Of a stretch of DNA of 64,000 nucleotides, positions 59,837 through 63,628 are shown piece by piece (positions within the stretch are counted from its first letter, which is position 1; each line of letters begins with the position of its first letter). Source of the DNA: Pacificispira spongiicola. Its GTDB lineage: Bacteria > Pseudomonadota > Alphaproteobacteria > UBA8366 > Aestuariispiraceae. The notes beneath the pieces were generated by a model. That model was not told the DNA's origin and made no database searches. It worked only from the letters and a program-made list of their open reading frames with translations. The DNA lies in assembly GCF_012926505.1 (NCBI RefSeq), contig NZ_JABBNT010000005.1, forward strand, positions 124,001 through 188,000, in the 5' to 3' direction. The translations under genes were made by a program, and so were the position numbers.

Positions 59837-60523
59837 TTATTCTTCGTCATATCCCAGTTGCGCCAGAACACGGCGGGCCAGCGGCACGGTCAGCGCGCGT
59901 CTTTCCGCGAGGCTCAACCGGTCCATCGCCGAAACGACGGCGGAAACCGCCGCGAAGGTACGCGGCATGCGTTCGGTCAGATACCTTAGGACATCCGGCC
60001 CCGGCGCCAAGCGGCGGTCATCGAATTGTTTCAAAAGAACCGCCTGCAGAACCGCGTCGTCCGGCGCCCCCAATTCCAACAAGGGCGCGGCGGCCAGTCT
60101 TGACCGCATATCCGGCGTACCGAAGGTCCATCGCGCAGGCGGTTCCCGAACGGCGACCAAAAGATGCCCGCCGCGTTCTCGCACCATGTTGATAAGGTGG
60201 AACAGGGTGTCCGGTTCGTGCACGCCGTCCGCGGCATCCACCGCCACGGCCACCGCACCTCCGATCGCCGTTTCAAGCCCGTTTACAGTCAAGTCCGCGC
60301 CGACCAGAAACACCGCCTGCGAAACGTCGCTCCACACCGCCAACAGATGAGACTTCCCACTTCCCTCCGGCCCGCACAGCACGGCGACCGGCCCCGGCCA
60401 ATCGGGAAAGCGGTCGATCCAGGCCACCGCCGCCGCATTGCAAGGGGCAACAAGAAAATCCTCCCGCCCCGATGCCGGTCTGAAACCAAGATCGAGGGGT
60501 AATTGCATCGGCTTTTCGGTCAT
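59837..60523 (-). CDS. hdaA: DnaA-related replication regulator HdaA
   Basis: 228 residues from ATG 60523, which overlaps the upstream stop (ATGA). The N-terminal QLPLDLGF is a beta-clamp binding motif, the hallmark of Hda/HdaA. The AAA+ domain follows with GPEGSGKSHLLAVW (Walker A) and VDAADGV (Walker B). The DNA-binding domain of DnaA is absent. With the sliding clamp it promotes ATP hydrolysis by DnaA and prevents over-initiation. Confidence 0.9.
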   Translation of the reverse strand: MTEKPMQLPLDLGFRPASGREDFLVAPCNAAAVAWIDRFPDWPGPVAVLCGPEGSGKSHLLAVWSDVSQAVFLVGADLTVNGLETAIGGAVAVAVDAADGVHEPDTLFHLINMVRERGGHLLVAVREPPARWTFGTPDMRSRLAAAPLLELGAPDDAVLQAVLLKQFDDRRLAPGPDVLRYLTERMPRTFAAVSAVVSAMDRLSLAERRALTVPLARRVLAQLGYDEE

Positions 60524-61722
60524 GGCCGGACAAGGGCCCATTCGTCGCGGCGCAGACCCGGCAACGTCGCCGCCCCCGGCGGTGTCAGTTGGAGGGCCGA
60601 CCGGGCAAAGGCTTGCTGTAAGCGAGCGGTATTGCCGACGAAGTCGATTTCGACCACGGCATGGTTGGTCGCCAATTCGGACAAGCGCCAGGATTTCACC
60701 GGCGCGAGACCATTCAGGACTTGCCGTACCGACAGCCAATCCGTCAGACCGGACACAAGCCCGACCCGCGCGGTCAAGGTTTCGGCGGATTCGTCGAACC
60801 GCAAAATGTTCGCGCGTTTCCAACGGGTATCCAGGGCATCGCGGACGATTGCCGCCGCTGCCACCAACGGGGCCGCATCTTCCCCTTGAGCATCGACATA
60901 TTTCGCCGATTCCGAGGTCAGCGTCGACGGGTGGATCGTGACCAATTCCGGGGCGGACGGCCACCCTGCCCCAAAGGTCGACACCTCCACCAGCATGCCG
61001 CCATCCGGCGTCTTGGTCGCGACCGGCACGATCACGGCACCGGCCTGATACCGTGCGGCAATCGCGTTGATCGCGGCGGCATCGATATTCAGCGCCCGAC
61101 GCACGTCGATTGCCGCGATATCGGCAAGGTCGCCCAGCGGTACCGTATAGGGCACGATCGGGGACGGCGTATCCAAGCGCCACCACGCGTCCAACCAGGG
61201 ATTGGCATCGCTCCACAGCAGGTCGCCGGTCTCGTTGCGATAGATCGGCAGGATGACCGCCTTGGGGCTCGGACCGGCCAGATAGGCCTTTCCGGCCCGT
61301 TGAAGGAAGCGATTCACCTCCTCAGGATGGAATCGGATGGTCATTTCCGCCAGATATCGACCGCCGCCGAATTTCTCGTTCTGGAAGGACAGGTCCCGAA
61401 TCATGAATTCCAGGCGTTCGCCGTCAGGCAGATCAAGCTGTTGCGGATCCTGATGCAGGGCGGCCCCGGGCGAATATTCCGGTTCCACCGTCAATCGATC
61501 GATGACGATCTGCAAGGCGCGGGTCTTCGCGTTGGCGATACCGATCTGCTTTGCTTCCACCTCGTTCGCGGCGCGTTCGTCGACCGGCAGCCCGGTTACG
61601 GCATAGAGATCCTGCGCGCGCACGGGCGACGCGGCGGCCCCGGCGGCGAGCAACAGGCCCGCAAGCGCCACAAAAAGACCGGACTTTCCGAAAATTCCCG
61701 ATATGCTGGGCCGCTCGGCCAT
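60520..61722 (-). CDS. DUF2066 family exported protein
   Basis: 400 residues from ATG 61722 with AGGAG upstream. A signal peptide (SGLFVALAGLLLAAGAAASPVRA) precedes QDLYAVTGLPVDERAANEVEAKQIGIANAKTRALQIVIDRL, the DUF2066 start (core A.a.AKTRALQIVIDRL). No catalytic motif is visible. It is coupled by overlap with hdaA and divergent from purM. The same neighbours are common in alphaproteobacteria, but the function is unknown. Confidence 0.82.
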   Translation of the reverse strand: MAERPSISGIFGKSGLFVALAGLLLAAGAAASPVRAQDLYAVTGLPVDERAANEVEAKQIGIANAKTRALQIVIDRLTVEPEYSPGAALHQDPQQLDLPDGERLEFMIRDLSFQNEKFGGGRYLAEMTIRFHPEEVNRFLQRAGKAYLAGPSPKAVILPIYRNETGDLLWSDANPWLDAWWRLDTPSPIVPYTVPLGDLADIAAIDVRRALNIDAAAINAIAARYQAGAVIVPVATKTPDGGMLVEVSTFGAGWPSAPELVTIHPSTLTSESAKYVDAQGEDAAPLVAAAAIVRDALDTRWKRANILRFDESAETLTARVGLVSGLTDWLSVRQVLNGLAPVKSWRLSELATNHAVVEIDFVGNTARLQQAFARSALQLTPPGAATLPGLRRDEWALVRP

Positions 61723-61896
61723 TGCAAAAGGCTCCTGTTTGGATAATGTCCCGCTCGTTATAGAGCAAATGCCCAGCGGGCGAAAACGCCTGCGACGACG
61801 GTTTGCCACAAATGTCATTTGGGCCCGCGCGCGGCAAACGCAAGAGACGCGATTGCACACCGGTCCGCGAATATGCCGCCGAGATAGGAGGGCGCC

Positions 61897-62964
61897 ATAC
61901 CAAACGAACCCAAAAAGAACGGCCTGACCTATGCCGATTCCGGGGTCGACATCGATGCCGGAAATCGGCTCGTCGACCGGATCAAACCGCTCGCCAAAGC
62001 CACGGCCCGCGCCGGTTCCGATGCCGGATTGGGCGGATTCGGCGCATTCTTCGACCTGAAGGGCGCCGGTTTCAAGGATCCCCTGCTGGTGTCCGGCACG
62101 GACGGGGTTGGCACGAAGCTGAAAATCGCCATCGATTCCGACATTCACCACACGGTCGGAATCGATCTGGTCGCGATGTGCGTGAACGACTTGGTCGTCC
62201 AGGGGGCGCAGCCGCTGTTTTTCCTCGACTATTTCGCCTGCGGCTGTCTGTCGGTCGATGTGGCGGAACAGGTCGTCAAGGGTATTGCCGACGGCTGCAT
62301 CCAGGCGGATTGCGCCCTGGTCGGCGGCGAAACGGCGGAAATGCCGGGCATGTACGGCGACGGCGACTATGACCTCGCCGGGTTCGCGGTCGGCGCGGTC
62401 GAACGCGACGCCGTGTTGAGCGCGGATAAGGTCGCGGAAGGCGACGTCCTGGTCGGCATGTCGTCCAGCGGCGTCCATTCCAACGGGTTCAGCCTGGTTC
62501 GGCGCGTCCTGTCGCTCGAGGGTCTGGGCTTCGACGCCCCCTGCCCCTGGGAAGACGGTAAAACGGTCGGCGAGGCCCTGCTTGTCCCGACCAAGATTTA
62601 TGTACAATCCGCCCTGGCGGCAATCGCAGCGGGCGGCGTTCATGGCATTTGCCACATTACCGGCGGCGGTTTCTACGAAAACCTGCCGCGTATCCTGCCC
62701 GATACGCTGGGGTGCCGAATCGATGGCGCAAGTTGGCCGAAGCTGCCGGTCTTCACGTGGTTGGCCGACGCGGGCGGGATTACGCCGCATGAAATGCTGC
62801 GCACCTTCAACTGCGGTGTCGGCATGGTAATGGCCGTCGCCCCGGACAGCGTTGAAGCGGTGTGCAAGGCGTTGAGCGATGCCGGTGAGACCGTCACCGT
62901 GATCGGCGAGATAGAATCGCGCGATACGCTGGGCCGTCCGGTTCTCGTGGACGGAATCGACTGA
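61897..62964 (+). CDS. purM: Phosphoribosylformylglycinamidine cyclo-ligase (AIR synthetase), apparent ATA start
   Basis: 355 residues if begun at ATA 61897-61899. The conserved N-terminus [23 protein letters not shown] is intact and must be translated, yet no ATG, GTG or TTG lies in frame between the upstream TAG (61885-61887) and it; the next TTG (62029) would remove 44 residues. AGGAGG sits five bases before the ATA, exactly where a start is expected. Other motifs: [35 protein letters not shown]. It closes the imidazole ring in purine synthesis using ATP. The ATA is either a rare real start, a sequencing error or a fresh mutation. Confidence 0.9.
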
Positions 62965-62968
62965 TCCG

Positions 62969-63628
62969 ATGGCGCAGGAGTCCGGCCGTACCAAGGTCGC
63001 CGTCCTGGCATCCGGCGGCGGCACGAATCTTCAAGCCCTGATCGACGCGGCGGCGGCACCGGATTTTCCGGCGGAAATCTGTCTTGTCCTGACGAATTCC
63101 CCCGGTGCCTATTGCCTGGAACGGGCACGGCAGGCCGGTATTCCGGGCCGCGTGATCGATCACCGCGACTATCCTGACCGCGAAAGCTTCGAACGCGAAA
63201 TCGACTTGGTGCTGCGGGAATACGGAACGGAGATCATCTGTCTTGCGGGGTTCTTGCGTATCCTGACCAGCAGCTTCGTTTCGTTGTGGCTGGATCGCAT
63301 GTTGAACATCCATCCGTCGCTGCTGCCGCATTTCAAGGGGTTGCATACCCATCGCCGCGCCCTGGAGGCGGGCCACGATACGCATGGATGTTCCGTGCAT
63401 CTGGTGCGCCCGGAACTGGACGACGGCCCGTTGATCGTACAGGCGGAAGTCCCCGTCCTACCTGACGATACGGAAGACAGCCTGGGGCAACGCGTGCTGA
63501 CCCGCGAACATGTCATCTACCCGCTGGCCCTGTCGCTCCTGGCAAGCGGTCGAATTGACGTCGCCGGGGATGAAACCAGGATCGACGGCGCGCCGGGGCC
63601 GCTGCTTCTGCATTGGGACGACAAATAG
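62969..63628 (+). CDS. purN: Phosphoribosylglycinamide formyltransferase
   Basis: 219 residues, starting 4 bp after purM. AVLASGGGTNLQAL (phosphate loop), NIHPSLLPHFKGLHTHRRAL with the catalytic Asn and His, and SVHLVRPELDDGPLIVQ with the catalytic Asp are all present. It formylates GAR with 10-formyl-tetrahydrofolate, two steps before PurM. Confidence 0.96.
   Translation: MAQESGRTKVAVLASGGGTNLQALIDAAAAPDFPAEICLVLTNSPGAYCLERARQAGIPGRVIDHRDYPDRESFEREIDLVLREYGTEIICLAGFLRILTSSFVSLWLDRMLNIHPSLLPHFKGLHTHRRALEAGHDTHGCSVHLVRPELDDGPLIVQAEVPVLPDDTEDSLGQRVLTREHVIYPLALSLLASGRIDVAGDETRIDGAPGPLLLHWDDK

Follow-up and report, generated by a model that had tools for sequence, protein, structure and literature searches.

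To our knowledge, few bacterial genes retain a non-AUG start codon over long evolutionary spans. Of those considered here, most (infC, sigR, ccpN and pcnB) either encode regulators or belong to translation and RNA. Here we describe purM, which encodes the purine enzyme phosphoribosylformylglycinamidine cyclo-ligase. Like purM, infC has a conserved AUH codon (AUA, AUC or AUU) and not AUG after a Shine-Dalgarno sequence, and the two occur in the same genomes; unlike purM, whose third base does not track that of infC, infC autoregulates its own product. The available parts of the published accounts describe IF3 as favoring strong codon-anticodon pairs (PMC10158994) and as repressing noncanonical starts at infC and sigR (PMC5472188). 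Streptomyces sigR resembles purM in its conserved, misannotated noncanonical start, which is IF3-repressed, but its codon is GTC, its product is a sigma factor and, in the available part of that account, it is reported in one genus (PMC5472188).

Other genes share some of these features. In Staphylococcus aureus, ccpN (AUA), cvfC1 (AUU) and citZ (AUA) have AUH starts as purM does, and that of ccpN is conserved to B. subtilis (PMC13009471, in the part available). Reporters in the same account placed AUA and AUU starts at about 10% of AUG in poor medium, with ccpN reaching up to 30% in rich medium (PMC13009471). These genes differ from purM in belonging to another phylum, in their identity and in their extended Shine-Dalgarno sequences; citZ does encode a metabolic enzyme, but its AUA is described there as confined to a single strain lineage, that of NCTC 8325 (PMC13009471). 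E. coli pcnB also has an AUU start, which is described as limiting pcnB expression, but it is an RNA-processing gene of a gammaproteobacterium. Rhodobacter capsulatus aerR is, like purM, an alphaproteobacterial gene with a noncanonical start, for which IF3 involvement has been proposed; unlike purM, it uses CTG as a second, internal start that yields a short isoform (PMC6199135, in the part available). In Rhodospirillum centenum, purM and purN are among the purine genes that fall during encystment, in an account whose available part is silent on the start codon (PMC4340629). We found no report of a non-AUG purM start in the open-access literature searched. A conserved AUH start is known as a kind; what appears to be new is its occurrence in this gene and this pathway, and the breadth described below.

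The purM start site and its leader

In the window, a 64,000-nucleotide stretch of the Pacificispira spongiicola genome, purM occupies positions 61897–62964 of the forward strand, including the stop codon. It was identified by TIGR00878 (448.5 bits against a cut-off of 236.35) and by PurM chains in the PDB, and it is the single purM match in the whole genome. A sequence-only reading of this DNA had placed the start at an ATA codon, and direct reading of the forward strand confirmed each element: an in-frame TAG (61885–61887) four codons 5' of the ATA, a Shine-Dalgarno AGGAGG (61886–61891), five intervening bases, the ATA itself (61897–61899) and, directly 3' of it, the codons CCA AAC, in a frame that stays open to TGA 62962–62964. 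As had also been stated, 44 codons without ATG, GTG or TTG (the canonical starts) separate the ATA from TTG 62029–62031 on the same strand, which the ORF list marks as the earliest canonical codon in the purM frame. The mechanical ORF list puts the purM start at this TTG, just as gene callers had been predicted to do. Both the AUA start without a canonical alternative and the spacing of the Shine-Dalgarno (AGGAGG, 5 nt) place the gene with the infC-type AUH-start genes.

Translation could in principle begin elsewhere, either at TTG 62029 or upstream by readthrough, and the standing of the TTG as the first canonical codon in frame speaks for this, as do the canonical codons found far upstream in an open frame in some relatives. 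We numbered the window PurM so that residue 1 is the codon after ATA and TTG 62029 is residue 44. On this scale, 7 of the 18 matched PDB sequences align only from residue 36–64 on, which would also suit a later start. However, 11 of the 18 align from residue 6–10 on, including E. coli 1cli, in which chain residues 4–343 pair with window residues 6–348, so a start at TTG 62029 would drop conserved N-terminal residues. In the translation, the conserved PurM N-terminus follows the ATA. Additionally, the TAG shuts the frame four codons upstream, and GAGG precedes the ATA and not the alternative codons. We consider a start elsewhere very improbable.

The leader of this gene departs from that of its relatives. 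A TTATA box that lies at −27 in many of them is displaced from the start here (61758–61762, forward strand), and about 112 bases between this box and the Shine-Dalgarno (61763–61874, forward strand) are absent from the congener L002 in a pairwise alignment. Of 80 AUH purM loci, 28 have TTATA at −27, a position that suggests a purM leader of about 15 bases. No second full copy of the 61763–61874 insert was found in the genome, where, apart from the insert itself, a single stretch of about 35 bases matches it in part. Searches of 61500–62200 gave no match to an Rfam family up to E 1, and no sigma-70-like promoter was found at 61650–61910.

AUH starts in the order and the class

We sampled 43 genomes of the same order and read all 40 loci in the genomes that have purM. 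ATA occupies the start place in 36 of the 40, all of which (36/36) carry GAGG at −9 to −6, and the remaining 4 loci are canonical (L009, L013, L015, L027). The expectation that close relatives would carry ATG was therefore wrong. A locus was called forced when no canonical codon lies between the in-frame stop and the conserved domain, the first form of this rule ignoring codons within two of the anchor. Under the first rule, 20 loci of the order are forced, 12 have the motif and no rival start bearing a Shine-Dalgarno, and 4 AUH loci have a canonical codon far upstream plus some Shine-Dalgarno. A strict rule that ignores no codon leaves 18 of 40 forced.

Where the start lies, that it is conserved and that alternatives are absent are direct observations. 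The recurrence of ATA at one position in 36 of 40 loci exceeds chance, and AUA is strongly supported as the true start. Since the GAGG at −9 to −6 recurs with the ATA in all 36, the codon is not an error. Gene finding under table 11 does not accept ATA as a start, so one might suspect a mistake in sequencing or assembly, or decay of purM, but codon and context are the same in these 36 loci from separate genomes, and the purM of the window genome is single and intact; we regard error or decay as negligible in probability. We conclude that purM translation almost certainly begins at the ATA or another AUH codon.

Beyond the order, a search of 385 alphaproteobacterial genomes gave a purM match in 289. 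We read 135 loci outside the order, the best-ranked among the matches listed, and could classify 131; because it was taken from the best-ranked matches, this sample leans to proteins like the window PurM and is not random. Among these 131 best-ranked loci, 22 are forced (in 15 families), 21 have the motif, 2 are ambiguous, 85 are canonical and 1 is neither. After removal of L248, AUH starts account for 44 of the 131 (ATT 17, ATA 14, ATC 13), so the expectation of ATG fails for a part of these best-ranked class matches as well. The strict rule, which spans the stretch from the in-frame stop, or 40 codons, to the conserved domain, leaves 21 of the 131 best-ranked class loci forced, in 14 families. 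For order and best-ranked class matches together, it gives 39 of 171 purM loci without any canonical start. The strict recount drops L021, L138 and L123 from the forced set; in L022, L029 and L155 the stop lies past the 40 codons covered by the rule, and 36 loci are left without these three. Taken by family, AUH purM occurs in 31 of the 70 sampled in order and class, 9 of the 31 being mixed.

A number of loci lie at the edges of these categories. L188 was counted as AUH though an ATG sits two codons upstream, and L150, L200, L229 and L153 were counted as canonical by rule despite an ATH at the usual place. For want of an anchor, L060, L185, L194, L245 and L251 were left unclassified; by eye, L185, L245 and L251 resemble AUH loci and L194 and L060 resemble ATG loci. 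L115 lacks both canonical and ATH starts from the stop to the conserved domain, and CTG is a candidate there. L162, L165 and L250 have ATG in an AUH-like context with an altered Shine-Dalgarno, a pattern resembling a trade-off between the codon and the strength of the Shine-Dalgarno.

In another collection, none of the 79 classified named loci (alpha-, beta- and gammaproteobacteria and two Exiguobacterium) was forced. Three Azospirillum records, including A. brasilense Sp7, read TAG and then GAGGATACC ATC AGC ACC CAG at purM, with no canonical start 5' of the conserved domain. As judged by comparison of these loci, the purM ATA is one of a group of ancient and conserved AUH starts that extends across many alphaproteobacterial families.

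Shine-Dalgarno context and choice of codon

Across the 171 loci, the in-frame codons that have GAGG at −9 to −6 are ATA in 50 cases, ATC in 12, ATT in 7, ATG in 1, TTG in 1 and another codon in 6. Because this tally amounts to 69 AUH against 1 ATG, the third base ranges over A, C and T, with G near-absent. AUH is thus kept and AUG avoided within this GAGG-5 context, yet 85 of the 131 best-ranked class loci are canonical. We think it very likely that selection acts against AUG at the purM start. Of the 29 forced loci that offer a single possible ATH, 23 have GAGG exactly at −9 to −6, compared to 2 of 86 canonical loci; under the strict rule, 21 of 27 do. A Shine-Dalgarno of at least 4 bases is present in 25 of the 29 forced AUH loci and in 36 of the 86 canonical loci. 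Fisher values for these comparisons overstate independence because the loci are related.

The residue after the AUH start is A, S, T, P or V in 27/29 forced loci, 25/27 strict loci and 68/80 of all AUH loci. Such a residue at this place fits a starting methionine that is made and then removed, and we infer that purM initiates with methionine. A quick PurM tree with 183 rows requires at least 33 changes between the AUH and canonical states, and by this measure the AUH start is often lost or gained; because the backbone is weak, these gains and losses are not orderable.

Much of the same data fits an unregulated set point, given that the Shine-Dalgarno sequences of canonical relatives are weaker. 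In such a case the AUH would be real and its weakness offset by a good Shine-Dalgarno, output would respond neither to IF3 nor to growth, and lineages would drift between AUH with a strong Shine-Dalgarno and AUG with a weak one. The proportions of loci with at least 4 bases (36/86 canonical against 25/29 forced) point in this direction, as do L162, L165 and L250, in which ATG and a changed Shine-Dalgarno stand in a similar context. Against it, ATG is near-absent in the GAGG-5 context (1 against 69), and the same architecture at infC is regulatory in other bacteria, according to the available part of that account (PMC5472188). We hold a fixed output of this kind to be possible but doubtful.

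Comparison with infC and a proposed mechanism

Genes beside purM served as controls for the start assignment. The next gene, purN (62969–63628, forward strand, TIGR00639), has an ATG start, as does the divergent neighbor of 400 aa read from its frame (60520–61722, reverse strand). A canonical start is available in 30 of 30 loci for purN and in 28 of 30 for the divergent gene, the other 2 having aligned too late to score. When the window was compared with two congeners, 15 genes had a homolog in the compared stretches, and purM and an ORF at 59840–61321 (reverse strand) were flagged in both. The ORF was judged a probable overlapping-frame artifact. The motif GAGGAYRCCATH has 4 matches elsewhere in the genome, compared to 1 for the control, and the three inspected were judged internal to frames.

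As a positive control, we assigned infC starts in 100 loci (30 of 40 matches plus 70 of 74 matches). These are ATA in 70, ATC in 16, ATT in 3 and none in 11, and no canonical start is in reach in 67 of the 100. The infC of the window genome (L259) has GAGGAGGCTCCT ATA at its start, and AUH starts at infC are found whether the purM of the genome is AUH or canonical. With AUH assigned in 89 of 100 infC loci, the likeness to infC drawn in the sequence-only reading stands. Agreement of the third base between purM and infC was considered and rejected on the 100 infC loci, where infC ATA pairs with purM ATA in 28 cases, ATC in 8 and ATT in 7.

The wide and conserved occurrence of AUH starts could also reflect a dedicated initiator tRNA or factor that takes AUH as a cognate start. 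A pattern search of the window genome found two CAU tRNA-Met genes with an initiator-like arm and no non-CAU tRNA-Met with this pattern, one further site being no tRNA. In this one genome the initiator arm pattern is matched by CAU genes only, which argues against a dedicated tRNA, and neighboring genes have ordinary starts available. We regard such a device as highly unlikely.

Our preferred reading, to which we give a probability of roughly 0.6, is that purM is a conserved infC-type gene whose AUH start is used through the ordinary initiator tRNA and restrained by IF3. The ribosome would be positioned on the AUH by a GAGG Shine-Dalgarno at a constant spacing of five bases, and the ordinary CAU initiator tRNA would read the AUH with a third-base mismatch. 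IF3 would then reject most of these initiation complexes, as at infC, and reduce PurM output. Output would climb when the supply of IF3 is low compared with that of 30S subunits, and purine synthesis would thereby be tied to the state of the translation apparatus. By analogy with published non-AUG genes, purM should be weakly translated and IF3-sensitive; the sensitivity is likely, and the earlier suggestion that purM is weakly expressed and dependent on initiation-factor fidelity is plausible. We infer IF3 control, and any physiological role of the start, from what has been described elsewhere, and that real regulation passes through the AUH codon strikes us as a little short of an even bet. 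Somewhat more tentatively, purM may be a second standing IF3-controlled member, in which start-codon fidelity tunes an essential purine step to the IF3:30S ratio in many alphaproteobacterial families.

A purine enzyme with an AUH start in 31 of 70 sampled families would broaden the set of non-AUG genes, and gene finders restricted to ATG, GTG and TTG would trim the N-terminus of PurM. What start-codon fidelity controls besides infC would also become a testable question in Azospirillum brasilense. If true, control of purM through its start codon would link nucleotide supply to translation capacity.
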